This document shows positions 20,553 to 37,800 of a stretch of 64,000 bases of DNA, piece after piece. The translations under genes were made by a program, and so were the position numbers. Source of the DNA: Corynebacterium urogenitale (GTDB lineage: Bacteria > Actinomycetota > Actinomycetes > Mycobacteriales > Mycobacteriaceae); the NCBI RefSeq assembly GCF_009026825.1, contig NZ_CP045032.1, positions 2,046,001 through 2,110,000 of the forward strand. Direction: 5' to 3'. Position 1 is the stretch's first letter. The number at the start of each line of letters is the position of its first letter. Below the pieces are notes generated by a model that saw only the letters and a list, made by a program, of their open reading frames with translations, was not told where the DNA came from and did not search any database.

Positions 20553-21665
20553 CTAGTTCAGGCCGGCGTAAGAGTGCAGGCCGGAGACAACCATGTTGAT
20601 GAAGAACAGGTTGAAGACCATCGTGGCAAAAGCAATCACGTTGATCCACGCCGCCTTATTGCCACGCCAGCCAGGGGTCGCACGCGCGTGCAGGTACACC
20701 GCGTAAATCATCCAGGTGATCAGGGATACGGTCTCCTTCGGATCCCAACCCCAGAAACGGCCCCACGCAGCATCCGCCCAGATCGCACCGAAGACCACGC
20801 CCAAGCCGAAGATCGGCAGTGCCCACACAGCGGTGCGGTAGGCCAGCGCATCCAGCTTCGCAGCATCAGGCAACGGAGAAGCAATCGCACCGAGAATGCC
20901 CTTCTCCTTGCCCTTCGGCTGGGCACGACGCACTAGGTACATGATGGAAGCCATACCGGACAGCAGACCAATGCCACCACCGATAGACACAGTAGACACG
21001 TGGATCGGGAACCAGCCAGACTGCAGGGACGGCACCACCGGAGCAGTCTCCGCATACAGGTTCGTGCCGGCATAGAACAGCAGCGCCACCACCGGGGTCA
21101 GCAGCCATGGCCACATCACACGCATGGACTTGCGCTGGATCACCGCGGCCGAAATAACCATCGCGAACAGAGTCACCACAGTCACGTACTCGAACAGATT
21201 GCCCCAAGGGAAGCGACCAGCAGCAAGTCCGCGCAGAATAACCTGCACAGCATGAACGGCAACCGCCAACCACACGAGAGCCTGAGTCACACCACCCAGC
21301 TTGTCCGCACGGTTCACGCGCTTGAGGATCGCATCGGCGCGCAGCGTCTCTGGGAGAGAGGACTCATCCACAGCGCCCGCAGCCGAAACTCCGCGCGCAT
21401 CATCGTCACTGACTCCACGGCCACCAACGCCGCTGCCAGCATCCGATCCCGCACCGGCTCCCACCGTGACCTTCTCACGCTGGGCTGCATTCGCCTTCAC
21501 TTCGCTCAGCACCTTCGCGCGCTCGCGCCGCTTCTCGCTCGCTAGGTGCGCCTGGCTGTAGTACAGCAGGGATACTGCCAGTGCCAAGAGGTAGATAGTA
21601 ACGGCAGCGATGAAAGCGCTATCGGAAAAACCAGCCAGATTCTGGTCGATGTTCGTGTTACCCAT
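20553..21665 (-). CDS. ccsB: Cytochrome c biogenesis protein CcsB (heme handling, system II)
   Basis: CcsB (also called ResC or CcsA) works with ResB to export heme and attach it to apocytochrome c outside the membrane. It is a 370-residue protein with about eight helices. The tryptophan-rich WWD-type motif appears as WGRFWGWDPKETVSLITWM, the heme-binding signature of this family, with conserved His residues in flanking loops. The N-terminal 100 residues include a Gly/Ala/Ser-rich cytoplasmic loop that is probably disordered. It is downstream of resB on the same strand, with a 180-base gap between them. The gap shows no gene. Confidence 0.93.
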   Translation of the reverse strand: MGNTNIDQNLAGFSDSAFIAAVTIYLLALAVSLLYYSQAHLASEKRRERAKVLSEVKANAAQREKVTVGAGAGSDAGSGVGGRGVSDDDARGVSAAGAVDESSLPETLRADAILKRVNRADKLGGVTQALVWLAVAVHAVQVILRGLAAGRFPWGNLFEYVTVVTLFAMVISAAVIQRKSMRVMWPWLLTPVVALLFYAGTNLYAETAPVVPSLQSGWFPIHVSTVSIGGGIGLLSGMASIMYLVRRAQPKGKEKGILGAIASPLPDAAKLDALAYRTAVWALPIFGLGVVFGAIWADAAWGRFWGWDPKETVSLITWMIYAVYLHARATPGWRGNKAAWINVIAFATMVFNLFFINMVVSGLHSYAGLN

Positions 21666-21845: not shown

Positions 21846-23570
21846 CTAGTCCTCTTCGCCGCGAGCCTTGCGGATCGCCTCATCCAATCCATCGTCGAAG
21901 GACTCGGTCCAGTCCATGCCATCGGAGTTGTAATCCTCCTCCAGCTCCTCCTCGTCGAGCTCCAGGATCCGCTCGGCGCGGCGGTTAAACTCCGAACCCC
22001 AACCGGCGGAATCGGTGCGCGCCAGACCGGCGATCTCCACGTGCGTCCGTCCGCCCTCCAGTGGCGTCAAGCGCACCCAGAAGCGGCGACGCTTCACCAT
22101 CAGCGAGCCCACGAGGCTCACCAACATGAGGATGGAGAAGAACAGCACCCACAGCACCGTCGGATCGCGGGAGATCTGCAGGTTCACAAACTCCTCCGCA
22201 CCATCGAAGCTAATCTCCGTTCCATCATCCAGCGTCACGGATTCACCCTGCTTCAGGTTCACCCGATCCAGTTTCTGCATCGCACCGCTGTGCAACTGCT
22301 CCGGGTCCAAGGAGAAGATGTTCTGGCTACGTCCGCCGTCCAGGCCGGTATCGCCCCTGTAGACGTCGATCGCCACGGCAGGGTCGCGCAAGGCCGGAAA
22401 GTTGGAGCTCAGCAATTCGCCATTGTCACCCGTGAACTCTGCCGAAGGTGCAAACAGTCCCTGGATGGAGATCTGCTGCTGGCGTCGTTCCAAAAGGTCG
22501 GGGTACATGCCCGCCGGCGGGTCCCAACGCACTGCACCGGAGGACAGGAAGTAGGTCAGGTCATCCGGGCGGAACTGAATGGTCTCCGTCCGCTTCTCAC
22601 CATTGGGCCAGGTGATCGTGAAGGTCGGCGCGTAGCCGTGCCCCTGCAGGTACACGCGATCGCCCATGATGCGCAGCGGGTGGTTGACCCGCAGCTTCTC
22701 GTGCTCCCACTCATCTGTCGGCAGCATCGCCGTTTCGGCATCTGCGTAGTCGATGTTGGACTCGAAGTGCAAGGCCTGACCATTGTCCAGGTACTCCGCC
22801 TTGAAGTCCTTAATGTTCACGCAGAAAGGAGTCAGCCCTGTGCCGTCGAAGACGGGCCCGTTGCGGAAGGAATCGAAGTTGGACACGGCGGAGTTGCAGA
22901 ACTGCGACTGCTCCGTTCCCGCCACCACGATGACCTGGCCTTCGTAGTACAGCATGCGCCCGGCGGCGACGCTGATGAGGATGCCGACGAGCGAGAGGTG
23001 GAACACCAGGTTCGCGGCCTCACGCAGGTAGCCGCGCTCCGCGGATAGGGACCATTTGCCCGCGCGGTCGTCCTCGGGCTGAACCGCGTTGGACTGCCAA
23101 CCCTTGAACTCCTTCTTCAACCGGCGTTGGACCTCCTCCGGGGAGGCGTCCAGGTCCCCCTCAACGAAGTTCGGCATCCGCTTCAGCACCTTGGGCGCGC
23201 GTGGCGGTGCACTGCGCAGAGCCTTGTAGTGGTCCCAGGAGCGCGGCAGAATGCAGCCGATGAGGGAGATGAACAGCAGCACGTAGATGGCGGCGAACCA
23301 GGTGGAGCTGAAGACGTCGAAGAGCTGCAGCTTGTCGAAGATCTCAGCGGTCTTGCCGTTGGCCTCCATGTACTTGTCCACGTTGTCGCGGTTGAGCGAG
23401 CGTTGCGGCAACAGCGCACCGGGCACGGCGGCGAGCGCCAGCAGCACCATGAGCACCAGCGCCGTCTTCATTTTCGTCAGCCACTGCCACAGTGATTTCG
23501 GCCCGGAGAGGATCGTCTTCAGCATGCTGTTGCTCTTTGTCTGTCTGCTTTGTTCTGTCTGCTTCGCCAT
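21846..23570 (-). CDS. resB: Cytochrome c biogenesis protein ResB
   Basis: ResB is the partner of CcsB in system II cytochrome c maturation. It has 574 residues. Three membrane helices are in the N-terminal half (the first containing LWQWLTKMKTALVLMVLLALAAVPG, of the conserved ResB start), a large extracytoplasmic domain lies at about 230-440, and a last helix (LWVLFFSILMLVSLVGSL) precedes an acidic cytoplasmic tail. Only the opening part of each motif is quoted. It sits 33 bases after ccdA in the order resA-ccdA-resB-ccsB, the usual actinobacterial arrangement. Confidence 0.93.
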   Translation of the reverse strand: MAKQTEQSRQTKSNSMLKTILSGPKSLWQWLTKMKTALVLMVLLALAAVPGALLPQRSLNRDNVDKYMEANGKTAEIFDKLQLFDVFSSTWFAAIYVLLFISLIGCILPRSWDHYKALRSAPPRAPKVLKRMPNFVEGDLDASPEEVQRRLKKEFKGWQSNAVQPEDDRAGKWSLSAERGYLREAANLVFHLSLVGILISVAAGRMLYYEGQVIVVAGTEQSQFCNSAVSNFDSFRNGPVFDGTGLTPFCVNIKDFKAEYLDNGQALHFESNIDYADAETAMLPTDEWEHEKLRVNHPLRIMGDRVYLQGHGYAPTFTITWPNGEKRTETIQFRPDDLTYFLSSGAVRWDPPAGMYPDLLERRQQQISIQGLFAPSAEFTGDNGELLSSNFPALRDPAVAIDVYRGDTGLDGGRSQNIFSLDPEQLHSGAMQKLDRVNLKQGESVTLDDGTEISFDGAEEFVNLQISRDPTVLWVLFFSILMLVSLVGSLMVKRRRFWVRLTPLEGGRTHVEIAGLARTDSAGWGSEFNRRAERILELDEEELEEDYNSDGMDWTESFDDGLDEAIRKARGEED

Positions 23571-23603: not shown

Positions 23604-24419
23604 CTAGATCGGCAACGTCGTGTCAGAAATGAAGGCCACGCGGATCCACTCAATCATGACCGCCCACTGGCCGGTGATCAAGAGGATGCCGACGATCACC
23701 AGTAGGGCTCCGCCGATCATCTGGATGGTGCGGGAGTGCTTCCTCAACCATCCCACGCCGCGCAGAGCCTTGGAAGAGCCGAGCGCCACGAGGATGAATG
23801 GCAATCCCAGGCCCAGGCAGTAGGCCACGATGAGAGTCACACCGCGGACCGCGGTCATGCCCTCCGTGCCGGCGGAGACGGAAATGATGGCTGCAAGGGT
23901 TGGCCCCAGGCACGGGGTCCACCCGAGTGCGAACACGCCACCGAGCAGGGGTGCACCGGCGATGGTCGTCCACCGCTTCGGGGCGATGCGGGTATCACGC
24001 TGCAGGGGCTTGATGAAGCCCATGAAGATGATGCCCATGAGAATCGTTACGGCACCGCCGACGCGCATGAGCAGCTCCTGGTTGAGCATCAACTGGCTGA
24101 TCATGCCGAAGACCGTGGCGGTCGCGAGGACGAATACGACTGTGAATCCCAGCACGAACAGCAGCGCTGCGGAGGCGACACGTCCCCGCTTCTTCTTCAC
24201 CACCGTGCCTTCGGCTGTGTATTCAGTCTCTGCCCCGACCACGCCGGCGAGGTAGGAAATATAGCCGGGTACCAGTGGCACTACGCACGGGGAGGCGAAG
24301 GACACCAGTCCAGCGATCGCGGCTGCGAGCAAGGCGAGAAGGATCGGGCCGGCGGCGACGGTATCGGCAAATTGTTGGCCGATGCCCTGCGCCAGGATCA
24401 AGGATGAATCGTTCATCAC
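23604..24419 (-). CDS. ccdA: Thiol-disulfide transporter CcdA
   Basis: CcdA carries reducing equivalents across the membrane to keep apocytochrome heme-binding cysteines reduced. It has 271 residues and six helices. The two redox cysteines are in SFASPCVVPLVPGY and LGWTPCLGPTLAA, both conserved in the DsbD/CcdA family. It lies three bases after the resA stop and is clearly in one operon. ResA is its likely electron acceptor. Confidence 0.94.
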   Translation of the reverse strand: MMNDSSLILAQGIGQQFADTVAAGPILLALLAAAIAGLVSFASPCVVPLVPGYISYLAGVVGAETEYTAEGTVVKKKRGRVASAALLFVLGFTVVFVLATATVFGMISQLMLNQELLMRVGGAVTILMGIIFMGFIKPLQRDTRIAPKRWTTIAGAPLLGGVFALGWTPCLGPTLAAIISVSAGTEGMTAVRGVTLIVAYCLGLGLPFILVALGSSKALRGVGWLRKHSRTIQMIGGALLVIVGILLITGQWAVMIEWIRVAFISDTTLPI

Positions 24420-24422
24420 GTC

Positions 24423-25025
24423 TTAGGCGTCCTGCTCGTTCAGCAGTGGTTCCACAGCGTCCCACAGTTCCTTGTCGGTGATTTCCTTGAGGAAGATGTG
24501 GGCTGGGCGGTGCTGCTTGTCCAGCACGATAGTCGTCGGGATGACAGAAGCCGGCACGCCACCGAGCGCCAGTGCGGACTTGAATGGCGGGTCGTAGAGG
24601 GAAGGGTAGGTGATGCCGTTGTCGCGAACGAAGTCCTGCGCCTTCTCACGCACGTTATCGCGCACATTGATGCCCAGCAGGGTTCCCTTGCCGGACTTTT
24701 CCAGCTTCTCCTGCACACGCTGCAGGTCATCGGACTCGCTGCGGCACGGACCGCACCACTGACCCCAGGAGTTGAGGACCACAACCTGGCCCTCGAAGTC
24801 CTCGAGGGAGATCTTCGAATCATCCAGGAGATCCACCCCTTGGATGTTGCCGATTGGCTGGCGATCCGCCTCTGGATAGGAAATGGCAGTCTGCCCGCCT
24901 GGGGAGACGAACTCGAAGGTGCCGCCCACGGCTACAGCATCGGTGCCCGCAGTATCGTCTGAGCTGCACGCCACGAGCAGACTCGTGGTCGCAGCTAACG
25001 TGACTGCTGCCAGTACCTTCTTCAT
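24423..25025 (-). CDS. resA: ResA/TlpA-like thioredoxin-domain lipoprotein
   Basis: An extracytoplasmic thiol-disulfide reductase for cytochrome c maturation, 200 residues. The signal peptide ends at a lipobox LLVAC (Cys20). The thioredoxin fold carries the active site WGQWCGPCRSE, with cis-Pro in GVPASVIPTT. It is the first gene of the ccdA-resB-ccsB operon. The gap upstream of it (25026-25275) holds no gene that I can support. Confidence 0.93.
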   Translation of the reverse strand: MKKVLAAVTLAATTSLLVACSSDDTAGTDAVAVGGTFEFVSPGGQTAISYPEADRQPIGNIQGVDLLDDSKISLEDFEGQVVVLNSWGQWCGPCRSESDDLQRVQEKLEKSGKGTLLGINVRDNVREKAQDFVRDNGITYPSLYDPPFKSALALGGVPASVIPTTIVLDKQHRPAHIFLKEITDKELWDAVEPLLNEQDA

Positions 25026-25275: not shown

Positions 25276-25887
25276 TTAGACCTTCTGCGCGGGTTCGCTG
25301 TAGTAGATATCTGTGAGGTCGGCTCCGTCGAAGACCAGGGAGGTTACGGAAGCCAGCTCGCACTGACGGGCGGCAGGGTTGTGGGCCAGTGGCAGCCCCT
25401 GGGCATCTCGCTGGATCATGACGATCGGCAGTTGATGGGAGATGAGTACCGCCTCGTGGCCGCGCGCTTTATCGCGCGCGTCGTCGATCGCCTCCCACAT
25501 GCGATCACAGATCTCCGTGTAGGGCTCTCCCCAGCTGGGGATGGAAGGGTTCTTCAGCAGTGGCCACAGCTTCGGGTTCCACAGTTCACTGCGCACTCCC
25601 TTGATGTGGCGGCCTTCCAGCTGATTGCCGGCTTCGATGAGGCGCTCCTCGGTGACGATCTCCAGCCCGAGCTTCTCGGCAAACGGCTGGGCAGTCTCCT
25701 GCGCGCGCTGCATGGGGGACACGGCCAGATAGGTGACGTCGTGATCCGCCAGATCATTGGCAGTAGCTTCCGCCATCGCCCGTCCTCGCTTGGAAAGCTT
25801 GTAACCTTCCAAGCGTCCATAAAGGATCTTGTCGGGGTTGTGAACCTCGCCATGGCGCACTAGATGCACAATCGTCGTCATGATCAT
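25276..25887 (-). CDS. Histidine phosphatase family protein
   Basis: A phosphoglycerate-mutase-fold phosphatase of 203 residues. The catalytic LVRHGEVHNPD at about residues 9-19 has the phospho-accepting His, and the second His is in EAVLISHQLPI. The gene lies between hemL and resA, a position kept in mycobacteria. Substrates of these GpmB/CobC-like proteins vary and cannot be assigned here. Confidence 0.88.
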   Translation of the reverse strand: MIMTTIVHLVRHGEVHNPDKILYGRLEGYKLSKRGRAMAEATANDLADHDVTYLAVSPMQRAQETAQPFAEKLGLEIVTEERLIEAGNQLEGRHIKGVRSELWNPKLWPLLKNPSIPSWGEPYTEICDRMWEAIDDARDKARGHEAVLISHQLPIVMIQRDAQGLPLAHNPAARQCELASVTSLVFDGADLTDIYYSEPAQKV

Positions 25888-25959: not shown

Positions 25960-27279
25960 TTAGGCAGTCGCGGCAGCAGCAGCCTTCGCCGCAGCAGCGG
26001 CAGCAATCTCCACCGTTGCGAAATCATCATCCGTCAGAGCGGTGGAAACGAACCAGGTTTCAAAGACACTCGGTGGCGCAAACACCCCGTGGTCCAGCAG
26101 AGCATGGAAGAACGCCGGGAAGCGGAAGGTCTCGGCCGCTTGCATGTCGGCGAAGTTCTTCCCCTCCCCCTCAGCGAATCGGAAGGAGAACATGCTGCCC
26201 GCACGCTGCACGTGGTGTGCCACGGACTCTCGGCTCAAAGCTTGCGAAATAATCCCGGACAGGCGCTCCGCGTTGGCGTCGAGCACACGGTACGTTTCCT
26301 CGTCGGCGAGCTGCAGAGATGTCAGGCCGGAGGCCACGGCCACGGGGTTACCGGACAGCGTGCCCGCCTGGTAGACGGAGCCCATGGGCGCGAGGTGATC
26401 CATGATGTCCGCACGCCCACCGAAAGCGGCTGCTGGCAGGCCACCGGACACTACCTTGCCGAAGGTTGTGAGGTCGCCCGCAACCTCGTCCTTGCCGAAC
26501 CAGCCTTGCTGCCCCACGCGGAAGCCGGTCATCACCTCGTCAATGATGAGCAGTGCGCCATCGGCATGGGCGATCTCCTTGAGCTGCGCGTTAAAGGACT
26601 TGCCGTCCGCGTCGATGGAGGACACGGTGCCCATATTGCCTGGCGTCGCCTCGACGATGATCGCCGCGATCTCCCCCGGGTGCGCTGCGAAGGCGTCCTT
26701 GACCGCCTGGATGTCCCAGTAAGGAACGACGACAGTATCCGCCGCAGCGCCCTTGGTGATGCCCGGAGAATCCGGCAAACCAAACGTGGCCACACCGGAC
26801 CCTGCGGCAACAAGCAGCGAATCCACATGGCCGTGGTAGCAGCCTTCAAACTTCAGGATCTTGTCGCGGCCAGTGAATCCTCGTGCCAGGCGTGTGGCGG
26901 ACATGGTGGCCTCCGTGCCGGAGTTCACGAGGCGCACTTTCTCCACCGACGTGCGATTGACGATCTCCTGCGCCAGGTCCACCTCCATGGATGTGGCCGC
27001 ACCGAAGGACAATCCCTTGGCAGCTGCACGCTGGACGGCGTCGACGATCTGTGGGTGAGCATGGCCGTGGATCATCGGGCCCCAGGAGCACACGAGGTCC
27101 ACGTAGGTGTTGCCATCCTCATCATGCAGGTGGGACCCCTGTGCGTCGGTGATGAATGGCGCAGTGCCGCCTACAGATCCGAACGCACGAACCGGAGAGT
27201 TCACACCGCCCGGGATCAGAGCCTGGGCGCGTTCCATGGACTTGGCGCTGGTGGCGTGGACAGAGGTGTTACCGGACAA
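25960..27279 (-). CDS. hemL: Glutamate-1-semialdehyde 2,1-aminomutase HemL
   Basis: HemL converts glutamate-1-semialdehyde to 5-aminolevulinate, the second step of C5-pathway heme synthesis, using [21 protein letters not shown] opens the fold, and [18 protein letters not shown] has the PLP lysine. I chose TTG 27279, 10 bases after gaaagg, because the 25 codons upstream in frame do not resemble family N-termini. This gives 439 residues, the usual length. The C-terminus is an unusual run of Ala/Lys. hemA, the preceding enzyme, is at 38966. Confidence 0.93.
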
Positions 27280-27458
27280 CGTGACTTGGCCTTTCGTGCT
27301 CGTGGCTGGGGATCTGAAGATCCCTTGGCTTGCAATCCCCTTCAGTCTAACCACGGGTGGGACAGTGGCGGGCGGGCGCGTCCGCCGGCCCCTTCAACTG
27401 GACCGATAAACTGCTCAGTCGTCCGACTCCACGACGGGTTCAGTGTGCAGGTTTAGTA

Positions 27459-30290
27459 TTACTGCACCTTAGCCGCAGCCACCGGGTTAGGTGCTGACTT
27501 CTCCGCAGACTCCTCCAGCGCCTCCTCGCGCGCCAATTCCCTCGCCGCTGCGCGAGCCTCGGCGCGCTTCTTGAGAGCGCGGCCCGCCCGCAGGCGCTCA
27601 GTCCACCCCTGCCACGTGTGGGTGTGACGCATCATCGACTCTGCGTAGTTTTGACGAGCCACGCGCTCCGAACGCCACTCGATCAGCGCGGAGCTTGCAA
27701 GCATCGCCACCGGGGCAATCAAAGGATTGAGGAGACCAGTGATCGCCAGGAAGATCGCGAGGCCGTTGTATGTCCAGCTCATCCAGATATTCCAGTCCAC
27801 GGTGTTGCGAATGTGGCGCACCAGGTTGATCGCTTCAGGGATGGCGGAGACATCCTCGCGCATCACCACCACATCCGCAGAGTTCACGGACACAGCATCG
27901 AGGTCATCGCGCGCACCCATGAGGATGCCCACATCAGCGGCGCGCAAGGCCATCGTGATGTCCTTATCACCGACCATCGCCACATTGTGGCCACGAGCGT
28001 GCAGGCTCCGCACCGTCGCTTCCTTACGGCTCGGTTCGATACCCGCCAAGACCGTGGAAATACCCAGGGAGTTCGCGATGCGGCGCGCCACTGGATACGT
28101 GTCACGGGAGAGCATGAACGTCTCAATATCCATGCCCTCCAGCTTGTCCACCGCCACCTCGGCATCATCCCGGAACGAATCCGCCAAGTTGATCACGCCG
28201 CGGTCTTTCCCCTTCCACCGGACGATCACCGGAGTACCACCGGAGACAGCAGCCGTCGCAAGACGGTGATCCTTCAACTCCCCCAGATCGCGTGGGCGCC
28301 ACAGGCTTGCCTGCACATGGCGCAATTCGCCATCCAGAGGAATATCGACCACACCACTGAACGTGCCGTCCTTACTGATGGTCACCTCGCCGGTTTCCAA
28401 CCAGTGTGGGATCTCATCTCCACCTGCGTTGGCATCGCGAGCCTCGCGGTCAGCGCGCACGATCGCCTTGCACACAGCATGCGTGGACTCCATCGACAGG
28501 GCCGCGGCCACACGCAACAGCAAGTCGGGGTTCTCCCCCTGCGCCGGGGTGACAGCAATAACATGCATCGGGCCGGTCGTCAGCGTGCCCACGCGGTTGA
28601 AGATGATGGAATCGATCCGTGCCAACTGGTGGATCGTCCCCGTGCCGCGGAGCAGCACACCCTTGGACGCCGCGCGCCCAATTCCCAGGCGCAGAGCCAA
28701 AGGCGCAGAGAGCGCCAGCGCCACCGGCGCCACCGCCACCAGGACGGACAAGCTTGTCGCCATCGCGGCATCCAGCGATCCATAGACGAGCAGCCAGCCG
28801 AAAAAGTTCACGACCGCGATCGCCATTGCCCACGGCACGAGCAGGGAGGCCGTCCTGTTCGTCAGCTGCGTAAAGCGATTCTCATCCTGCACCGCACTGC
28901 GGAGCCAGCGCTGCATGGCCGCGAGGCGGGTCTTCGATCCCGTCTCCTGGACGCGGAGCTTCAGCGGCTGCCCCTCGTTTCTGGCGCCCGCGAACACCTT
29001 GTCGCCCACGGCCACCTTCACTCGGCGGTTCACTCCGCCCACCGGCCCCATGTCCACCTCGGATTTGCCGGAGACCACCTCACAGTCACTCGGCACCCAG
29101 GAACCGAAAGGAATGATGATGTCATCGCCGCGGCGCAGCTCCGTCGGCGCCACCTGCGACTTTGTGGTCTTTCCCTTCTTCGACTTACGCACGACGGTCA
29201 CCTCGTGCGTAAGCGCGTGTGTCGGCACGGACAGAATCTCACGGGATTTCAACTGGCTGCGTCGAGACAGAAGACGGCCAAACAGAAGCAGAATCGTCAC
29301 GCCGCAGGCCACGTCGAAAAACGATGACCCCTGGGTGTTCGGGTTCGCCCAGTCACGCGCAATGAGCACCTGGTGAGTGGTCCAGCCGAGGTCGCCGGCC
29401 TCCGTAAAGATCAACGCCCACAGGGAGTATAGGTAACCGATGAGGATCGCCGAGGAGCTTGCACCGTCCAGCGCGGACATGCCACGCCGCAATCCGCCAA
29501 CCATCGCCCGGTGGAAAGGCCACGCGCACCATGTCACGACCGGCGTGGACAGCGCCAGCGCCACCCACTGCCAATAGTCGAACTGCCAGGCAGGAACCAG
29601 TTCGATCAAAACCACCGGCAGGCCGAGCACAACTGCCACCAGCAGCCGGAGCTTCGTGATGAGCTCACGGGCTGTATGGAGTACCTCCGTGCCGTCGAAG
29701 GGGTTATGGAAGCGCCGATCGATCATCGTCGGCTCCGCGCCTCGCGTTCGGGACGACGCCAGTAGGCGCGAATTCGCCTTTTGGTAGGAGTGCCGGCGCA
29801 TCTTGCGACGCGTTTCTTGCAGGTCTAAGCGCTCGGAGCGGCGGCGCAAAGTCGAGGCGGTCATCCAGCCTTCGACCCCGAAGTTACGCATATGCTCCAT
29901 AAGCTCGGCAGGGTTGACGTACTCCTCCGCGGAGATCCACGCCATGTTGGAGGAGTACACCACAACCGCCTCCACGCCACGCATCGCGTTGAGGTCGCGC
30001 TCAAGGGCCGTCGCATCTACTGCAGATTCCAGCCCCACCAGGCGGAAGGCAAAGCTGGCGAGGCCCTGGCTCTTGGTGTATTCGCTGCGCTCGGAGGAAT
30101 CGAGCTTCTGAGCCTGATCCATGTCGAAGCCAGCTGTTTTTGCAGCTGCGCGGGCGGCCACGATGGCACGCTCGACCGACTCGACCGTGCCCTGGCCCTG
30201 ATCACCGGAGGCGACAGAAGAATCATCCAGTTCAGGGGCAGGTTCCGGAACCCCAGTGGTTCCCGCGTGACCCGCACTGTATTCAGCCAT
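27459..30290 (-). CDS. P1B-type P-type ATPase relative lacking catalytic motifs
   Basis: A 943-residue protein with the layout of a heavy-metal P-type ATPase: an HMA-like N-domain (about 78-145) without CxxC, six or more helices, and actuator, phosphorylation and nucleotide regions. The catalytic positions are altered. IIFNRVGTLTTG replaces the DKTGTLT phosphorylation motif (Asn565 for Asp), VAVAPVALAL replaces the CPC metal motif (521-523), DMGPV replaces TGES, and MVGDKDITMALRAADVG replaces GDGxNDxPAL. The fold elements around them are intact, and the reading frame is clean over 943 codons, so this looks like a maintained pseudoenzyme, not a decaying pseudogene. The C-terminal 45 residues form a charged helix. 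The location next to hemL suggests a role in heme or cytochrome biogenesis, but that is inference. Confidence 0.85.
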   Translation of the reverse strand: MAEYSAGHAGTTGVPEPAPELDDSSVASGDQGQGTVESVERAIVAARAAAKTAGFDMDQAQKLDSSERSEYTKSQGLASFAFRLVGLESAVDATALERDLNAMRGVEAVVVYSSNMAWISAEEYVNPAELMEHMRNFGVEGWMTASTLRRRSERLDLQETRRKMRRHSYQKANSRLLASSRTRGAEPTMIDRRFHNPFDGTEVLHTARELITKLRLLVAVVLGLPVVLIELVPAWQFDYWQWVALALSTPVVTWCAWPFHRAMVGGLRRGMSALDGASSSAILIGYLYSLWALIFTEAGDLGWTTHQVLIARDWANPNTQGSSFFDVACGVTILLLFGRLLSRRSQLKSREILSVPTHALTHEVTVVRKSKKGKTTKSQVAPTELRRGDDIIIPFGSWVPSDCEVVSGKSEVDMGPVGGVNRRVKVAVGDKVFAGARNEGQPLKLRVQETGSKTRLAAMQRWLRSAVQDENRFTQLTNRTASLLVPWAMAIAVVNFFGWLLVYGSLDAAMATSLSVLVAVAPVALALSAPLALRLGIGRAASKGVLLRGTGTIHQLARIDSIIFNRVGTLTTGPMHVIAVTPAQGENPDLLLRVAAALSMESTHAVCKAIVRADREARDANAGGDEIPHWLETGEVTISKDGTFSGVVDIPLDGELRHVQASLWRPRDLGELKDHRLATAAVSGGTPVIVRWKGKDRGVINLADSFRDDAEVAVDKLEGMDIETFMLSRDTYPVARRIANSLGISTVLAGIEPSRKEATVRSLHARGHNVAMVGDKDITMALRAADVGILMGARDDLDAVSVNSADVVVMREDVSAIPEAINLVRHIRNTVDWNIWMSWTYNGLAIFLAITGLLNPLIAPVAMLASSALIEWRSERVARQNYAESMMRHTHTWQGWTERLRAGRALKKRAEARAAARELAREEALEESAEKSAPNPVAAAKVQ

Positions 30291-30347: not shown

Positions 30348-30890
30348 CTATCCGCGCAGGTCATCCCCAGGAAGTGTGCCGTCGCCTTCAATCGGAGCCT
30401 CCAAGCGGTGGCCAGCATCGAAGAAGGGGTCAGCGGCGGGGCGAAACGCCATGAGCAAACCCACAGCGAGACCGAGGGATAGCAGTGCCTGCCCCGTGCC
30501 CGTAAAGCCGAAGACCCAACCAAGCAGCATGAGGAAAATCGCCAGGCAAGATACCCACAGCATCCACCGCCGGCGGTTGCGGTACCCCTCCCGGAGCGAG
30601 AGCGCCAGCCACGTAATGATCGCGCCTGTGACCACATTGACACCCCCGAGGATCTGCACGTTCCTGCGCACGAAATCCATCCGCTCAGCTTCGGCTGCAT
30701 CCACTGGCGGGCGGTTCCAGTCAGCGGTGAGCATCATCACACCGGACAGCACCATCATCACGGCCACGATCACGATCACAACAGAGGCCGCGAGGACGAT
30801 ACGCGGGGTTGGATCCCCCGGCTTCCATCGCTTGACCTGGCGGTTGGCATCATCACCCGAAGATGCCATGGAAGGAAACATGCTCGGCAT
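30348..30890 (-). CDS. Four-helix membrane protein upstream of the P-type ATPase relative
   Basis: A 180-residue protein, function unknown. The helices lie at about 30-52, 80-97, 107-124 and 128-146. An N-terminal RQVKRWKPGDPTPRIVLAAS and the loop NRRRWMLWVS stand out. It is nine bases after the larger membrane protein gene and 57 before the ATPase-like gene on the same strand, suggesting one operon and possibly one complex. The start could also be the ATG at residue 4 or 8. Confidence 0.7.
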   Translation of the reverse strand: MPSMFPSMASSGDDANRQVKRWKPGDPTPRIVLAASVVIVIVAVMMVLSGVMMLTADWNRPPVDAAEAERMDFVRRNVQILGGVNVVTGAIITWLALSLREGYRNRRRWMLWVSCLAIFLMLLGWVFGFTGTGQALLSLGLAVGLLMAFRPAADPFFDAGHRLEAPIEGDGTLPGDDLRG

Positions 30891-30899
30891 ACGAATGTC

Positions 30900-31778
30900 C
30901 TATCGCTGGTTCGGGTGGTCGTTACTGTGACGCGGCCCCTGCTGGCCCCGTGGATCCTGCTGGTTATTCGGACCCTGTTGGCCGTTCCAGCCGGCCCCGC
31001 CGTGCGGCCCCTGCTGGTTGCCACCATCGTGGCCACGCGCCTGAGGCTCCTTGGCTCCCCTCGTTGACCTCTCCTTGGCCTCGCGCTCCTTGGCTTCCTT
31101 CGCTGCCTTCTTCGCAGCCTTTTCCTCCTTACGCCGGCGCTCCACGGCCTCGGCATACTTCTCCATCTCGGCCAGCGGCGGAATCCCCAGCCACTCAGCA
31201 TTCCCCGGCCGCGCGAAGAACCACATACCCAAGATCGCCGCGACACCCGACAGAATGGTGAGGATCCCCAGCATCAGCACAAAGCCCACCGGCATCGTGG
31301 TCGGAGCACTACCAAACAGCAGCAGCACGGCCTGCAACGCCAGGTACACGGAACCGACGTTGAGGAACACGCGCGAGTACGGGCCACCACGCCCGGCGCG
31401 CAGCGTCAGCCACGCGCACAGCAACGCCACTAACAGCATCCAAATCAGCATCGACACATTGACGGAAGCCACTTGCGTGGAAAGGTCAGCCTCCTTCAGC
31501 GCCCCCGCCAAGCTCCCCATGCTCTCCTCAGACTCCTTGATCTGGGAGGTCAGCGCCCGCGGATCGACGATATTCGCCACGAACTGCACGATCGCATACA
31601 ACGCCTGCATGCTGGCCACGCACAGCCACGTCATCACGCCGAAGCGCACATCCTCTGGCGCACCATTGAGGTTCTTCGCCAGTCCATCCTTGCGCCCCAC
31701 CTTCGGAGGCTTCAGCTCCTCCTGGTGGGACAAGTTGTTCTTCGTACCGTTCGAGGTGCCGTTATCTATGCCGTTCAT
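30900..31778 (-). CDS. Membrane protein with charged helix and Gly/Gln/Asn-rich tail
   Basis: A 292-residue protein, function unknown. It has four hydrophobic helices (about 48-70, 110-130, 139-160 and 167-190). After them comes a strongly charged Lys/Glu/Ala helix at about 205-245 that should be a coiled coil, then a disordered tail rich in Gly, Gln and Asn. I chose ATG 31778. In-frame codons back to 31823 would overlap the protease promoter. It is divergent from the protease gene and the likely first gene of the operon leading to the ATPase relative. Confidence 0.7.
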   Translation of the reverse strand: MNGIDNGTSNGTKNNLSHQEELKPPKVGRKDGLAKNLNGAPEDVRFGVMTWLCVASMQALYAIVQFVANIVDPRALTSQIKESEESMGSLAGALKEADLSTQVASVNVSMLIWMLLVALLCAWLTLRAGRGGPYSRVFLNVGSVYLALQAVLLLFGSAPTTMPVGFVLMLGILTILSGVAAILGMWFFARPGNAEWLGIPPLAEMEKYAEAVERRRKEEKAAKKAAKEAKEREAKERSTRGAKEPQARGHDGGNQQGPHGGAGWNGQQGPNNQQDPRGQQGPRHSNDHPNQR

Positions 31779-31847
31779 ACGGCTATCTAGCCTACTGCCT
31801 AGCCAGTACATTTTCCCCTCCACCGCCCGCTTTCGACCGCGGAGGTC

Positions 31848-31853
31848 TAGGCT
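31848..31853 (+). promoter_or_regulatory. -10 element, leaderless protease promoter
   Basis: TAGGCT is followed by seven bases and ATG 31861, with no ribosome binding site. The divergent gene starts at 31778, so the two promoters share about 80 bases. Confidence 0.45.
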
Positions 31854-31860
31854 TCAATCC

Positions 31861-33216
31861 ATGAACCGCTCAGTACGTCAACCCCTCAACCGATGGTGGC
31901 CGGTGTGGGCTGCGGTTTTTATCATTCTTTTGGTGTACGGGATTGGTGGCGTCGTTCTTCTCAACGACGCCACCAGGCCCCCATCCGCAACGCCACCACC
32001 ACGCCCCGCAGACGCCAACGAACAGGCTCCCGACACTCTCTTCACTCGGGGGCTCACGGACCTGCCACCGGACTACCCCACTGACCCGGACTCCGCGGAG
32101 CTCCAGCGCGCCAAGGATGCCGGCTCCTACCTACTGAGTCCCGGCGAAGAGGGATACACAGCCCAGGAGGACGCTGCCGTGCGGGACAACGAATATTTCC
32201 TCGGTGGCGTGCACCCTCACGAGGACCAGAGTTGGCGCACATACCCGCAGCCCACGCCGGGTATGGCGCTGGACATCGACGGTGAGTTCAGTTGCACGCT
32301 CGCGTTTGTGGGCCACTACGCGCCCGCCACGGACGGCAGCGGTTCGGTGGCGCGCGCGGAGCACGCAGCGGTCCCGGAGCCAGTAAACGGGGCCACCGAG
32401 ATCAGCCCGAGTAGTGCCAGCACAGATCGCGCGGGCAATCGGCGCGCGCCCTCACCAGCAGCGCTGACAGCAGGACACTGCATGGAGAGCGATGAGGACG
32501 GCATCGTCGAGTGGTCGCCAGGAGCGGAAGGATACCCTGTCGCACCACTGGGTCAATGGGATGCTCACCAAGCATTGGACTCGTACTCCGTTGAGGTCGG
32601 CTCGCTCTCGGAGCACTTCGCGCAAAACAATTCTGGCAGCGAAGATGCGGATGATCCTCGACAGGAAACTGAAGCTGCGGATAATCGCCCACACGAAGGA
32701 GAAGACTCGGAGGCTCGCCCGCAAGAAGCGGAAGACCTGGACAGCGACAGTGAGGACACGGAAGACTCGAGCTCGGAGCGGACGTTGATGGGCCTCGCTC
32801 CCGCGCCAAAAGCACTCCCGGCACAACTCGACACGGACTGGGCCAGCATGAGCCTGGAGCCACGCGCGGATTTCAATCCACGAATCGACGGCCGCTATGA
32901 CGTGGTCACCACCGCCGGCGCAGCCGATCTCCGTCCAGGCATGATGGTGTGCAAAATGGGCTTCCGAACAGGAGAAACTTGCGGACCCGTATTGTCCTGG
33001 AACGCCACCATGGTGCGTATTAACCTCTACTCACTCACGGGGGATTCCGGTTCTCCGGCTTATATCAAGCTCGGTGGAAACAAGGTCGCGGCTTTGGGCC
33101 TGCTTTCTGGGTCTCCAGTGGACTCTGAGAATGTCACCAATGACTACGTGACAGACTTCGCCCTCGTCGCACCAGTGATGCGAGCCACGGGTTTCCGCCT
33201 CGGTGAGGGTGGCTGA
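31861..33216 (+). CDS. Membrane-anchored trypsin-like serine protease
   Basis: A 451-residue S1-family protease anchored by one N-terminal helix (about 13-34) with the rest outside the cell. The triad is His206 in LTAGHC, Asp326 in LDTDWASMSL and Ser396 in TGDSGSPAY. Between His and Asp lies a highly acidic insert, about residues 253-306, nearly all Asp, Glu, Ser and polar residues, which is not part of the fold. Cys145/Cys207 and Cys364/Cys374 could form disulfides. I chose ATG 31861 for the leaderless promoter. A very long upstream extension of the frame is antisense to another gene and rejected. The protease is unrelated to heme synthesis and looks like an insertion in that region. Confidence 0.85.
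   Translation: MNRSVRQPLNRWWPVWAAVFIILLVYGIGGVVLLNDATRPPSATPPPRPADANEQAPDTLFTRGLTDLPPDYPTDPDSAELQRAKDAGSYLLSPGEEGYTAQEDAAVRDNEYFLGGVHPHEDQSWRTYPQPTPGMALDIDGEFSCTLAFVGHYAPATDGSGSVARAEHAAVPEPVNGATEISPSSASTDRAGNRRAPSPAALTAGHCMESDEDGIVEWSPGAEGYPVAPLGQWDAHQALDSYSVEVGSLSEHFAQNNSGSEDADDPRQETEAADNRPHEGEDSEARPQEAEDLDSDSEDTEDSSSERTLMGLAPAPKALPAQLDTDWASMSLEPRADFNPRIDGRYDVVTTAGAADLRPGMMVCKMGFRTGETCGPVLSWNATMVRINLYSLTGDSGSPAYIKLGGNKVAALGLLSGSPVDSENVTNDYVTDFALVAPVMRATGFRLGEGG
31945..31974. repeat. Inverted pair of the GGTGGCGTCG motif
   Basis: GGTGGCGTCGTT (31945-31956) and AACGACGCCACC (31963-31974) are perfect 12-bp arms around a six-base loop, inside the membrane-anchor codons of the protease. Ten further copies of the 10-mer are scattered over the window (see findings). 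Confidence 0.8.
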
Positions 33217-33246
33217 TTTCCTGGCCGTGGCTGATTTCCTGACCCT

Positions 33247-33370
33247 GGCGAAATTCGGTGCGGTGGCGAAATTTCGGGCGATCGCTAAATTTCGCCGCAG
33301 TCTTGGCGGTGAAATTGCAATATCGCCCGCGACAAGGTGGTGAAATTCCGAAGGGGGAAGAAATTTCGCC
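33247..33370. repeat. Cluster of GGCGAAATT motifs, left flank of the DUF559 gene
   Basis: GGCGAAATT occurs at 33247 and 33265 on the plus strand, and at 33288 and 33362 on the minus strand, with degenerate copies between. Just before it, gtggctgatttcctg is repeated in tandem across the protease stop codon. The 33217-33647 gap contains this cluster and the DnaA boxes but no gene. Confidence 0.7.
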
Positions 33371-33472
33371 AGGGAGCCAAAAATTGGCCAAGGCCACTGA
33401 CCTTTCGTCCCACCGCAACCCGAATACATGGGGCGAGCAGGTGTTATGGCGGGCCGGTGGCGTCGTAAAAAT

Positions 33473-33499
33473 TTATCCACAACCGCTGAGTTATCCACA
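33473..33499 (+). promoter_or_regulatory. Two consensus DnaA boxes
   Basis: TTATCCACA occurs at 33473-33481 and 33491-33499, same orientation, nine bases apart. A GGTGGCGTCG copy ends eight bases before the first. They could regulate the next gene or titrate DnaA. This is not the replication origin, as dnaA and dnaN are absent. Confidence 0.5.
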
Positions 33500-33647
33500 A
33501 CTCCCAGCACACCGGGCACCCCGCAGCGTCAACCCGAGCACCTCGATCAGCTAGGCTCCGCCCCACGAGGGATCGCGCGCGCAGGACCAGTCGCGCGCAA
33601 CCACGGGGAAGAGAAACATGGGGAAGACCAATCCAGGGGGAAGACCA

Positions 33648-34772
33648 ATGCGCCCATTCAAGCGCGAACTACCGACACTCCTACCGGAGACCGCGCCACA
33701 GCTACGCGCCCGCGGCGTGAGCGACGGTGAAATAACACGCAACCACGAACGCGTCACGCACAACACGTGGATCCACCGCAGCAACAGACAAGGCGAGCAG
33801 CACGACATCATCACGCGCACTCGCGCGCACCACCTCACCAACCCAACACGACCCGCCTCCGGTTGGTCAGTGTTGGCCTACCACGGGCTGCCATACTGGG
33901 CGGATGCCACGCCCGCGGTCTTCGCCAGCGAGCGGCGATCCAGAAAGAACACGCGCAGTGTGCTGGGGCCACATGTGGAACACTTTCCACAGCTCACGCT
34001 GGATAAGCGGCTCTACGATCCGCGGATGCCGAGTATTCGCTGTGTACCCATCGAACTCGCTATGGTCAGTGCGCTGCAAAGTATCCGCGACGGGACGATG
34101 CAATGGCACGTGCCCAACATTCCTGGATGGGCGCCGAAGGATGTGCGCGCGGTGCAGCTGTTGGACGCGGCCATCAGGCACGCGCAGACGAAGATCGAGC
34201 TAGAGACTTTCACTCAGGCTGCGGCGCACAAGCTCGACAAGCAGTGGGCGCAGAGAATTCGAATGGCCACAGACACCGGAGCGGGCTCCCCCATGGAGAC
34301 ACTGCTGAGACTGACTCTGAAGCAGGTCAACGTGGGATCATTTCCGCTGCGTTGGGAATCGCAAGTGCCTGTGTACGACGACGGTGGACTCACCCCTCCA
34401 GGCGGACCCGATCGGCCAGGCGGGATGGACGGATCGGGGAGGTCAGGTAGGACTGGTGGGCCAGCGAAGCCAGGTTGGGCCGGCGAGCGAGGGAAGCCGG
34501 GCTGGGCAAGTGATTCGACTTTTCGGCCGTGGATCACTGTTGCGGACCTGATGTGCAAGGAGCTCAAGGTCATTGTGTTCCACGACGGCGCACACCACCG
34601 GACGCCGGAGCAACACCGCAAAGACGCCGAGATCAACGCCTTCCTCCAATCCAAGGGGTACCGGGTGCTGCGCGTGACCGCCGACATGCTGAAAAATCCA
34701 GAATTGCTTCGGGTCAGGGCGGATCGGTTGCTGCTAAGCGCTATCAACGAGCGGGAGGAGATGGGCTGGTAA
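33648..34772 (+). CDS. DUF559-type (Vsr-like nuclease fold) protein
   Basis: A 374-residue protein. The C-terminal part, ADLMCKELKVIVFHDGAHH followed by HRKDAEINAFLQSKGYRVLRVT, matches DUF559 proteins, which share the Vsr/PD-(D/E)XK endonuclease fold. The N-terminal 200 residues resemble the AbiEi-like or regulatory part found with such domains in actinobacteria. A Gly/Pro/Arg-rich stretch of about 40 residues (starting PPGGPDRPGGMDG) interrupts the nuclease-like domain before its second half. I chose ATG 33648, seven bases after aggggga. An ATG at 33618 is an alternative. Repeated GGCGAAATT motifs flank both sides. A role in DNA processing or defence is inference. Confidence 0.7.
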   Translation: MRPFKRELPTLLPETAPQLRARGVSDGEITRNHERVTHNTWIHRSNRQGEQHDIITRTRAHHLTNPTRPASGWSVLAYHGLPYWADATPAVFASERRSRKNTRSVLGPHVEHFPQLTLDKRLYDPRMPSIRCVPIELAMVSALQSIRDGTMQWHVPNIPGWAPKDVRAVQLLDAAIRHAQTKIELETFTQAAAHKLDKQWAQRIRMATDTGAGSPMETLLRLTLKQVNVGSFPLRWESQVPVYDDGGLTPPGGPDRPGGMDGSGRSGRTGGPAKPGWAGERGKPGWASDSTFRPWITVADLMCKELKVIVFHDGAHHRTPEQHRKDAEINAFLQSKGYRVLRVTADMLKNPELLRVRADRLLLSAINEREEMGW

Positions 34773-34919: not shown

Positions 34920-35951
34920 CTACCTGGACAGAAGCTTCGCCGCCTCCGTCGCCCAGTATGTGAGGATAATGTCCGCCCCGGCGCGCGCGATCCCCGTGAG
35001 GGACTCCAGAATGCACGCCTCACGATCCAACCAGCCCCGCTCCGCTGCAGCGCTAATCATCGCGTATTCACCGGAGACCTGGTACGCCGCGACGGGCACA
35101 GTGGACATCTCCGCCACTTCCCGCAGCACGTCCAAGTACGGCATCGCTGGCTTGACCATCACGATGTCCGCCCCCTCGTCGATGTCCAGCTGAGTTTCCA
35201 ACAAGGATTCCCGCAGGTTGCGCGCATCCTGCTGGTACTGGCGGCGGTCACCTTCCAGCGAGGAACCCACTGCCTCACGGAATGGCCCGTAGAACGCAGA
35301 AGCGTACTTTGCGGAGTAGGCCATGATCGACACGTCTTGGTGCCCAGCAGCATCCAGAGCTTCACGGATGCGCCTGACTTGGCCGTCCATCATGCCGGAG
35401 GGGCTGACGATGTGCGCGCCAGCTTCCGCTTGTGCAACGGCCATTGCTGCGTAGCTGTCCAGTGTGGCGTCGTTATCAATGATCGTGTGGCCCCAACGGT
35501 CGGTCGAGAGGACTCCGCAGTGGCCGTGGTCGGTGAATTCGTCAAGGCATGTGTCGGCGATGATGAGCACGTCGTCACCGAATTCCTTGCGCGCGCGGGC
35601 GAGCGCCTTGTTCAGCACGCCGTCCTCGGCGATTCCGGCGGTTCCTGTGGCGTCCTTGTCTTCTGGCAGCGGAACGCCGAACAGGTCGACCGCGGCCACT
35701 CCGGCCTCGATGGCCTCTTCGATTGCGGTGAGCAGGCTGTCCTCTGTGTGTTGAACGACGCCAGGAAGGCTGCTGATTGGAGTTGGCTCCGCGGAGGCAG
35801 AGTTTTCATGGTCCGCAATGAACATGGGCAACACGAAACGGTTGGGGTTCAGGTCCGTTTCTGCGGTGAAGTTGCGCATCACTGGGGATGTGCGGAGGCG
35901 GCGTGGCCGCCGGGATGGGATGTATGTGCCGGATGCAGGGGAGCTAGTCAT
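34920..35951 (-). CDS. hemB: Porphobilinogen synthase HemB
   Basis: HemB joins two 5-aminolevulinate molecules into porphobilinogen. It has 343 residues. The Schiff-base lysines are in AYSAKYASAFYGPFREA and IVMVKPAMPYLD. The metal site reads DTCLDEFTDHGHCGVL: two of the three zinc cysteines of the E. coli type are kept, and the middle one is Asp, a mixed type I have seen in actinobacteria. ATG 35951 follows ggaggcatt. It is 22 bases after hemD in the order hemA-hemC-hemD-hemB. Confidence 0.95.
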   Translation of the reverse strand: MTSSPASGTYIPSRRPRRLRTSPVMRNFTAETDLNPNRFVLPMFIADHENSASAEPTPISSLPGVVQHTEDSLLTAIEEAIEAGVAAVDLFGVPLPEDKDATGTAGIAEDGVLNKALARARKEFGDDVLIIADTCLDEFTDHGHCGVLSTDRWGHTIIDNDATLDSYAAMAVAQAEAGAHIVSPSGMMDGQVRRIREALDAAGHQDVSIMAYSAKYASAFYGPFREAVGSSLEGDRRQYQQDARNLRESLLETQLDIDEGADIVMVKPAMPYLDVLREVAEMSTVPVAAYQVSGEYAMISAAAERGWLDREACILESLTGIARAGADIILTYWATEAAKLLSR

Positions 35952-35973
35952 AATGCCTCCGATGCTAGTCCCC

Positions 35974-37800
35974 TTAAGACTGGGCCGCGGCGACCGGTGG
36001 CACTGGGGCAGCACCCGTGTTGGGAATCGCCGCGCCAGAGGCGGCATTCGCGGTGACACTAATTGCCGGGTTAGCCGCCACCCCGTTCTTACGACGGCGA
36101 CGGCGCTTGCGTGGTGGCGGCAACTGGCCTGCGGCACGCAAGTCGGCGACGTGGCTAGCCAGCGCGTCCACGAGGTCTTCCACTCCCGCGTGTTCCGGCA
36201 TCACGTCCACGCGCAGACCGTGTTCCTTGGCGGTCTGTGCAGCCATCGGGCCGATGCAAGCAATGATCGTGCGGGTATGCGGCTTACCCGCGATACCCAC
36301 CAGGTTCTTCACCGTGGAAGAAGATGTGAAGCAGACGGCGTCGAAGCCACCGGTCTTGATCATGTCGCGGATCTCTGGACTCGGAGGGGCTGCGCGCACG
36401 GTTCGGTAAGCGACCACGTCATCGACTTCCCAGCCGAGGTCGATGAGACCATCGACTAGGACGTCGGTGGCGATATCGGCACGTGGCAACAGCACACGAT
36501 CCACTGGGTCCAGGTCCTCGTCGTGCGGAGGGAAGACCTCCACCAGGCCGGAGGCGTTGCGGGCGTTGGCCTTCGGCAGCAGTTCCGGGCTGATGCCCAG
36601 GTCGCGCACGGACTGAGCGGTCTTTTCTCCAACTGCGGCTACACGCACACCCGCAAGGGCACGGGCATCCAGGCCGAATTCGTTGAGCTTCTCCCACGTG
36701 GCCTTCACGGCATTGACGCTGGTGAAGACGATCCAGTGGTAGCGGCCATCGACGAGTCCCTTGATCGCGCGCTCCATCTGCGCTGGGCTGCGCGGCGGTT
36801 CCACTGCGATGGTCGGCACCTCCACTGGGATGGCACCGTGGCTGGCCAGGCGGGCGCTCATCGGCCCCGCCTGGTTCTTCGCGCGCGGCACGAGCACAGT
36901 CCAGCCATAGAGGGAACGGTTTTCCCACCAAGAATACTTGGAACGCTTCGCTGGCTCCGCCTCCGTGCCGATGGTCACGAGCAGCTCCTCCGGCAACTCG
37001 CCATCCTTTGCTGCGGGACCGGAGGCTGCTGCGATGGACTTCAGCGTATCCAGGGTCACGTCGTAGGAGCGCTGGCGGCGGGTCGTGGCGTGCAGAGTGA
37101 CAGTCGCCGGGGTGCTGCCAGGGATATCGCGGTGCTTGAGCTCGGTGGCGATGCCCGCGAGGTTGGATGGCGCTGCCGTGAGGATCAGCGGCAGTCCGGC
37201 GCTCGCGAGCTGTTCCCAGTCCGCACCTTCGCGCACGTCGGCGGTGGTCACGTCCGGCCCCACTCCGATGCCGGTGAAGGCGGGAACGGCAGCTGCTCCC
37301 GTCATTCCAGGAATCACCTGGAATTCGATCGCGTTCGGCTCGGCGAGACGTTCGACCTCTTCCAGTTCGGCCATCACGGCTTCGTTCGATAGTGGGTTGC
37401 CTGCGACCAGCCGCACCACGTCGTCTCCAGCCTGTGCGCACTCCACCATTTGCGCCGCAATGTCCTCGGGCTGCCCATCGCCCGCGAATGGCACGGCGTA
37501 CTCAATTTCCGCGGCACTTGGCGGCTCTGGGCGCGGTGGCTTGCGGCGGGCGCCGGCTTCCTTGGCTGCCTTGACCTGCTCTTGCCAGGCGGCTTCGGCG
37601 GCGTCGAGCTTCGCTTGGGGCACCGGTACCTTGGCGGCGATGAGGCTACGCACACCCACGGTCACGGCGGGATCGACCCATGCGTAGGCAGTCTGTTCCA
37701 GCACGTCGCGTGCACGAACGGTCAGCAGATCCGGGTTGCCCGGCCCCGCACCCACGAAGAGGATGCGACCCGCGCCCAAGGTTGTTCCGGATTCGTTCAT
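35974..37800 (-). CDS. hemD: Uroporphyrinogen-III synthase fused to a methyltransferase-like domain
   Basis: A 608-residue fusion. The N-terminal half is a uroporphyrinogen-III C-methyltransferase-type (SUMT) domain beginning LFVGAGPGNPDLLTVRA. The C-terminal half (about 310-550) is the HemD cyclase with TVLVPRAKNQAGPMSARLASHG and FTSVNAVKATWE, CFTSSSTVKNL and IACIGPMAAQTAKEHG. Such fusions are normal in actinobacteria. The SUMT SAM-binding region is altered (RLVAGNPLSNEA where active enzymes have a GGDPFVFGRG-type loop), so methyltransfer is doubtful. ATG 37800 follows ggaaag by seven bases. A basic and Ala-rich tail ends the protein. The gap to hemC is about 180 bases. Confidence 0.9.
   Translation of the reverse strand: MNESGTTLGAGRILFVGAGPGNPDLLTVRARDVLEQTAYAWVDPAVTVGVRSLIAAKVPVPQAKLDAAEAAWQEQVKAAKEAGARRKPPRPEPPSAAEIEYAVPFAGDGQPEDIAAQMVECAQAGDDVVRLVAGNPLSNEAVMAELEEVERLAEPNAIEFQVIPGMTGAAAVPAFTGIGVGPDVTTADVREGADWEQLASAGLPLILTAAPSNLAGIATELKHRDIPGSTPATVTLHATTRRQRSYDVTLDTLKSIAAASGPAAKDGELPEELLVTIGTEAEPAKRSKYSWWENRSLYGWTVLVPRAKNQAGPMSARLASHGAIPVEVPTIAVEPPRSPAQMERAIKGLVDGRYHWIVFTSVNAVKATWEKLNEFGLDARALAGVRVAAVGEKTAQSVRDLGISPELLPKANARNASGLVEVFPPHDEDLDPVDRVLLPRADIATDVLVDGLIDLGWEVDDVVAYRTVRAAPPSPEIRDMIKTGGFDAVCFTSSSTVKNLVGIAGKPHTRTIIACIGPMAAQTAKEHGLRVDVMPEHAGVEDLVDALASHVADLRAAGQLPPPRKRRRRRKNGVAANPAISVTANAASGAAIPNTGAAPVPPVAAAQS

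Follow-up and report, generated by a model that had tools for sequence, protein, structure and literature searches.

The minus-strand gene at positions 27459 to 30290 of a 64,000-nucleotide stretch of Corynebacterium urogenitale (contig NZ_CP045032.1; the whole stretch is called the window below) encodes a protein, here named pATP, that reads by homology and domain order as a P1B ATPase but has lost the ATP-driven engine and the copper cysteines of that family, with the P1B domain order retained. A phosphorylated Asp is the defining feature of P-type ATPases, which are textbook pumps, and the residues of pATP support the proposal, made in a first-pass annotation of the window, that pumping by the known mechanism is beyond it. 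With its catalytic residues lost and its orthologues under purifying selection, pATP is nearly certainly a pseudoenzyme, as judged from sequence. An ancient, strongly selected family member without the phosphorylated Asp, found across most of a genus, indicates that the whole machine can be retained for another use. The use favored here, with a probability of about 0.5, is that of a membrane-anchored scaffold or regulator of heme and cytochrome c supply. The gene and its altered sites are located as follows:

27459..30290, minus strand: pATP, pseudo-P1B-ATPase of 943 residues (open reading frame, family scans, alignment)
28584..28598, minus strand: former DKTGT phosphorylation site, now NRVGT, residues 565-569, including Asn565 (alignment)
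28722..28730, minus strand: former CPC copper site in transmembrane helix (TM) 4, now APV, residues 521-523 (alignment)
29028..29039, minus strand: former TGES loop, now GGVN, residues 418-421, varying in length and sequence among orthologues
27954..27971, minus strand: former GDGxND magnesium site, now GDKDIT, residues 774-779 (alignment)
28101..28109, minus strand: former TGD, now SRD, residues 728-730, the Arg being invariant in an 84-sequence alignment
29841..30065, minus strand: HMA-like N-terminal domain without CxxC, residues 76-150 (alignment with canonical CopA)
28221..28550, minus strand: former nucleotide-binding (N) domain, residues 581-690 (conservation compared with CopA)

The 943-residue open frame reported earlier was correct: a single uninterrupted reading frame with an ATG start, AGGAGG directly upstream and no internal stops. 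pATP scored above both cut-offs of the Pfam E1-E2_ATPase and HAD hydrolase models and below those of the NCBIfam P1B models (332 bits for TIGR01525, under its curated cut-off of 346). The archaeal CopA structures 7r0g and 3j09 matched it at about 180 bits, and its residues aligned to solved structures over 322-861 (7r0g) and 212-870 (3rfu); membrane helices were assigned through alignment to P1B ATPases. The nearest named relatives were those of Corynebacterium dentalis (73% identity) and C. suicordis (72%).

Alignment of 17 pATP orthologues with 32 canonical P1B ATPases displayed how far the catalytic apparatus was altered. The motif changes described in the first-pass annotation were all correct (the sites read FNRVGTL at DKTGT, APV at CPC, GGVN at TGES and GDKDIT at GDGxND), and the loss went further than claimed, with TGD, the HMA Cys, the N-domain Glu and GxG, and the copper entry also altered. 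Positions invariant in the 32 canonical proteins and changed in the orthologues included D, K and T of the phosphorylation site, T and E of TGE, the Gly of TGD (replaced by Arg), the second G, N and D of GDGxND, two N-domain residues (the Glu that precedes the HP motif and the second Gly of GxG) and the first Cys of CPC, as well as three positions matching the copper-entry Met, Glu and Asp. The N-domain Glu and GxG are ATP-binding residues, and the Met, Glu and Asp are entry residues according to work on LpCopA. In the HMA CxxC, the leading Cys of 30 of the 32 canonical proteins was replaced by Ser, Asn or Thr in all 17 orthologues (S89 in the window protein), and the TM4 site was A/G-P-V in all 17, against C-P-C (29) or C-P-H (3) in the canonical set. 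Kept in both groups were N834, Y841 and N842 (TM5), M863 (TM6), H604, D730, K756 and several glycines and prolines. The YN of TM5 was complete (Y841 and N842 in 17/17), and the MxxSS of TM6 was largely preserved (M863 in 16/17, S866 in 15/17, S867 in 12/17).

The same alterations extended over the whole group of relatives. A protein search gave 1124 matches, and the best 120, less the window's own protein, left 119 listed relatives, 43-89% identical to pATP; environmental carriers such as C. marinum and C. lubricantis were among those named. N-R-x-G stood at the phosphorylation site in 119/119 of these, while D-K/R-T-G-T/S, CPC, GDGxND, CxxC within the first 260 residues and TGES in place were each found in 0/119; the letters TGE occurred displaced in two (P0056 and P0058), in a glycine-rich stretch of the former TGES loop. 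Read from DNA at 76 loci (the window's own counted, several genomes occurring twice), the site was FNRxG in 75 and INRLG in L176. Asn565 and the APV site were both conserved in this sense among orthologues (Asn-Arg in every listed relative, A/G-P-V in every aligned one), and intact DKTGT and CPC were encountered in none of the relatives examined, on which grounds a recent loss of catalysis was rejected. Public records annotate these relatives as P-type ATPases that translocate heavy metals or export copper, so that the function assigned, and predictions of metal transport made from a pATP gene, are probably wrong. Among these records, which included P0069, one carries the species name Staphylococcus chromogenes and may come from a contaminant.

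Maintenance by selection, as proposed in the first-pass annotation, was borne out by ratios of nonsynonymous to synonymous substitution rates (dN/dS) of 0.033-0.161, far from 1. Values were 0.033-0.035 in three close pATP pairs around C. jeikeium, and the window pATP gave 0.062 against genome G147, 0.144 against C. dentalis and 0.161 against C. suicordis, the wider pairs being rough estimates as synonymous differences (pS) were near saturation (0.6-0.7). In the same comparisons active CopA gave 0.133, 0.163 and 0.129, respectively; the two proteins thus had similar dN/dS. When 937 segments of seven residues were ranked by conservation over 84 orthologues, FNRVGTL came 2nd, the former CPC 17th, TGD 55th, GDGxND 335th and the TGE loop 779th.

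The strongest result on which part of the protein is used came from a matched control, in which pATP and active CopA from the same 21 genomes were compared by domain, conservation being expressed relative to each protein's own mean. The N-domain showed the largest rise of any pATP domain (1.09 in pATP, 0.67 in CopA), with smaller differences in P2 (1.11 and 1.02) and P1 (1.05 and 1.16), whereas conservation fell in the actuator (A) domain (0.79 and 1.06) and in TM5-6 (0.96 and 1.34); the HMA-like domain was alike in both (0.83 and 0.86). When 14 of the genomes were drawn at random 200 times, the difference ranged from 0.35 to 0.50 for the N-domain and from -0.31 to -0.44 for TM5-6. In CopA the last two helices were the most constrained and the nucleotide head the least, while in pATP the head ranked with the most constrained parts and the actuator came last. 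The rise of the N-domain together with the fall of TM5-6 may be read as a change of role in which binding by the cytosolic head took the place of transport.

pATP orthologues formed a single deep clade (long stem of 0.94, support 1.0), sister to actinobacterial CopA with CPC, and DKTGT and TGE were present in 99/99 canonical reading frames examined. The pATP tree had 21 of 26 splits in common with the tree of its neighbors, the most of nine genes (pATP also being the longest alignment), and this agreement argues for vertical inheritance. In a family search of 201 genomes from 31 genera, 13 of the 16 Corynebacterium genomes scored above 600 bits, that of the window among them, none of the 185 genomes from the 30 other genera scored above 304 bits, and all 17 non-Corynebacterium loci examined were canonical. 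A contig scan with six peptide patterns of pATP, an insensitive method that missed many Corynebacterium orthologues, found 153 relatives; the 80 kept comprised 11 Corynebacterium orthologues and 69 others (identity of 34% or less), all 69 with DKTGT and TGE. As far as tested, the clade thus appears limited to Corynebacterium.

Among 201 Corynebacterium genomes, 154 had a pATP match below 1e-150. Forty of the 47 genomes with weaker matches were inspected (all but G051, G056, G091, G100, G108, G130 and G152), of which 37 were without the gene and three held a diverged or fragmentary copy, so that carriers numbered at least 157 of 201. Mapped on a tree of 58 loci built from eight neighboring proteins, presence and absence required five changes, with pATP present at the midpoint root, on which this ancestral state depends. 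Most likely, pATP was ancestral to the sampled Corynebacterium and was then lost about five times, the heme and cytochrome c genes staying in place. These natural losses, together with an active CopA in the same genomes, make the function of pATP directly testable.

The genes surrounding pATP belong largely to heme synthesis and cytochrome c biogenesis. Those that matter here are the following:

30348..30890, minus strand: m180, 180-residue membrane protein without Pfam or NCBIfam match, adjoining the pATP slot in most loci with or without pATP
30900..31823, minus strand: m307, 307-residue membrane protein without Pfam or NCBIfam match, true start uncertain
25960..27354, minus strand: hemL, glutamate-1-semialdehyde aminomutase (named from its sequence and by synteny)
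25276..25887, minus strand: phosphoglycerate mutase-like protein (PGM) of the hemL operon (synteny with cg0519)
24423..25025, minus strand: ResA/TlpA-like thioredoxin (family scans)
23604..24419, minus strand: CcdA-like (DsbD_TM) membrane protein (family scan)
21846..23570, minus strand: ResB, cytochrome c biogenesis system II (family scan)
20553..21665, minus strand: CcsB, cytochrome c biogenesis system II (family scans)
34920..36137, minus strand: hemB, upstream part of the conserved block

Eleven of 11 named loci had the order (hemA hemC) hemD hemB - m307 - m180 - pATP - (hemE hemY) - hemL - PGM - ResA - CcdA - ResB - CcsB; L008 starts inside hemD, and L013 was alone in having hemE and hemY here, its m307 being found by a closer query. 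With 60 further loci, 71 were compared, 40 of them picked for a weak pATP match and hence not a random sample. The placement beside heme genes noted in the first pass proved general, the cluster being one of heme and cytochrome c genes: in 34/34 carrying loci pATP occupied the same slot, between the small membrane-protein genes and hemE or hemL (L203 ends after pATP). The linkage expected of a heme or cytochrome c factor was thus found, all 34 pATP loci adjoining heme genes. In the 37 loci without pATP the slot was empty, with hemE next after m180 or m307 in 36 and hemL in one (L157).

In that locus (genome G079), pATP, m180, hemE and hemY were all absent between m307 and hemL, as one independent loss. 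In the window's genome, two plus-strand frames lie between hemB and m307 (31834-34772): one gives the impression of a secreted trypsin-type protease (no Pfam match), and the other encodes a DUF559 protein (PF04480, E 1e-8).

Co-occurrence with the two membrane proteins held in part. pATP is adjacent to them in one operon slot; they are not its dedicated partners, and an exclusive partnership was rejected, since m307 was found in 37/37 and m180 in 30/37 of the loci without pATP.

By sequence, a CopA-type pump that was present in the ancestor of the sampled Corynebacterium (midpoint rooting) lost the residues for phosphorylation and dephosphorylation, for binding ATP and magnesium, and its copper cysteines; its domain order was retained, and the gene was then preserved in one operon slot. 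Under the favored interpretation, its product works without transport. The change of the TGD Gly to Arg may, with the Asn-Arg pair, plug the former active site and hold the head in a single conformation. The former nucleotide-binding head, anchored in the membrane, is probably now a binding surface for a protein or small ligand of the heme and cytochrome c supply encoded by the surrounding genes, because selection on the N-domain rose while that on TM5-6 and the actuator fell. Also in favor are the copper induction of the operon part from hemL to ccsB in C. glutamicum and the presence of CopA for copper export, both described below. At the membrane, pATP would most likely hold or regulate enzymes of the heme pathway or components of cytochrome c maturation, and would contribute to the pathway without being strictly required, because the pathway persists in the roughly five lineages from which pATP was lost. 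The same losses, with cytochrome c genes remaining, weaken the earlier idea of a required cytochrome c assembly factor. A broader formulation, put forward tentatively, is that a whole P-type ATPase was turned into a stand-alone regulator or scaffold whose nucleotide-binding head, freed from catalysis, came under selection as one of its chief targets and adjusts the production of heme and cytochrome c at the membrane to respiratory metal status.

Several observations weigh against a scaffold or regulator of heme and cytochrome c supply. Operon position by itself is no proof of function. Of the 71 fetched loci, the 37 without pATP kept hem and ccs genes as far as the stretches reach (HemL seen in 33/37 and ResB in 26/37, some stretches ending earlier), so losses of pATP took place without loss of the pathway. 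Evolutionary rates of pATP and HemD covaried with rho 0.61 in 22 taxa and only 0.23 in 29 taxa, and values of 0.30-0.33 against PGM, HemL and ResA (29 taxa) were not significant after 36 tests; among the locus genes no significant m307 or m180 signal and no stable covariation partner for pATP were found. Conservation by domain did not split cleanly between cytosol and membrane, as MA-TM2 rose slightly (1.08 in pATP, 0.95 in CopA) and TM3-4 barely dropped (1.07 and 1.15). Finally, C. glutamicum, the source of the copper response described below, may lack pATP, judging from its gene numbering. The correlation with HemD in 22 taxa is a weak lead for a partner.

Some of these points suit a different explanation, in which pATP is a conserved operon passenger with a genuine non-catalytic function unrelated to heme, such as membrane or envelope organization, and its position reflects old operon history. 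About five losses that spared the heme and cytochrome c genes, and the want of a stable covariation partner at the locus, are in line with this possibility; it is nevertheless rather unlikely, as the slot is identical in 34/34 carrying loci and pATP remains beside hemL in lineages that have no hemE and hemY there.

An ATP-free role in copper handling, as a docking platform, buffer or passive Cu(I) carrier, for instance for cytochrome aa3 assembly, is improbable. Copper ATPases of the CcoI/CopA2 type within P1B serve oxidases, and the CopA residues N834, Y841 and N842 and, in most orthologues, M863 and S866 are kept in pATP; nevertheless the two cysteines of CPC, the CxxC of the HMA domain and the entry residues Met, Glu and Asp have all been replaced, and TM5-6 is relatively less conserved than in CopA. 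The loss of the canonical copper cysteines and entry site likewise weakens the metal-sensing role suggested at first. The operon itself is connected with copper: in a C. glutamicum study, excess copper raised the mRNA of hemL, cg0519, cg0520, ccsA (cg0522) and ccsB (cg0524) 3.6 to 4.6 fold (PMC3140484). Their names and order match those of the genes that follow pATP downstream in the window, the ResB gene being absent from that table; this induction ties the operon to copper and tells nothing of the pATP protein itself. Against a copper role, CsoR-type boxes within the 64-kb window numbered 18, with 19 expected by chance. Export of copper is a job already filled by CopA, a match below 1e-140 being present in 199/201 Corynebacterium genomes, among them every one of the 47 whose pATP match was weak; with CopA near-universal, co-occurrence with pATP was uninformative. 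In the window's genome, copA (L002:1519-3774) has a csoR-like gene directly downstream, and its promoter carries the perfect palindrome ATACCCCCAGGGGGTAT. A palindrome of the ATACCCCC-GGGGGTAT type, perhaps a CsoR operator, was seen in the copA promoters of this genome (L002:1241-1530) and of L206 and L208, two of the four relatives' loci examined.

Two further alternatives have little probability. The cytosolic head could be a sensor that signals to the heme operon when it binds heme, a porphyrin, a nucleotide or some other intermediate of the pathway; renewed constraint on the N-domain, its insert relative to CopA and the invariance of R618, D619, R665 and P666 (W630 nearly so, in 84 sequences) would fit, although no known ligand motif was recognized in the head. 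Slightly less probable still, pATP could be a dominant partner or inhibitor of active CopA through hetero-oligomers: the proteins are of one family and CopA is nearly always present, but it is also there in 47/47 genomes with only weak pATP matches, pATP is encoded with heme genes and not with copA-csoR, and no need for hetero-oligomers is known among P1B ATPases. Decay of a pseudogene or a sequencing artefact, to which the missing motifs, a frame in pieces in L156 and stop codons reported inside some matched stretches might point, has a negligible probability and was rejected, given dN/dS of 0.03-0.16, invariant new residues, 119 protein clusters, and 13 loci checked for stops, nine of which have just one, located where the match ends or close to it, and four of which have none. 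In L156 (G077, a 77% complete genome), pATP and the neighboring PGM both matched in multiple frame pieces, which may be an assembly error.

Among known systems, the P1B-1 exporters CopA and CtpV are closest to pATP, which has their domain order at about 30-34% identity, their PFHRA region, YN of TM5 and M of TM6, the N-domain His604 and a HAD-like P domain, and falls in a sister clade. Unlike them, pATP is without the phosphorylatable Asp, CPC, an in-place TGE, GDGxND, the ATP-binding Glu, GxG and the HMA CxxC, and its conservation is spread differently over the domains. The solved structures 7r0g, 3j09 (copper-exporting ATPase A) and 3rfu (copper efflux ATPase) align with pATP but keep the residues it lost; their proteins are pumps. 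CcoI, FixI and CopA2 resemble pATP as P1B ATPases tied to the biogenesis of respiratory complexes and differ from it in being catalytically active and pumping copper. In the open-access literature, subscription papers being mostly outside its scope, no title or abstract was found that describes pATP or a stand-alone bacterial P-type pseudo-ATPase. A degenerate P4-ATPase domain is described for the guanylyl cyclase GC-beta of Plasmodium falciparum (PMC6592433), and the domain of the related GC-alpha has been inferred to be active (PMC7858053). The GC-beta domain is of type P4 rather than P1B, eukaryotic and fused to a cyclase, whereas pATP stands alone.

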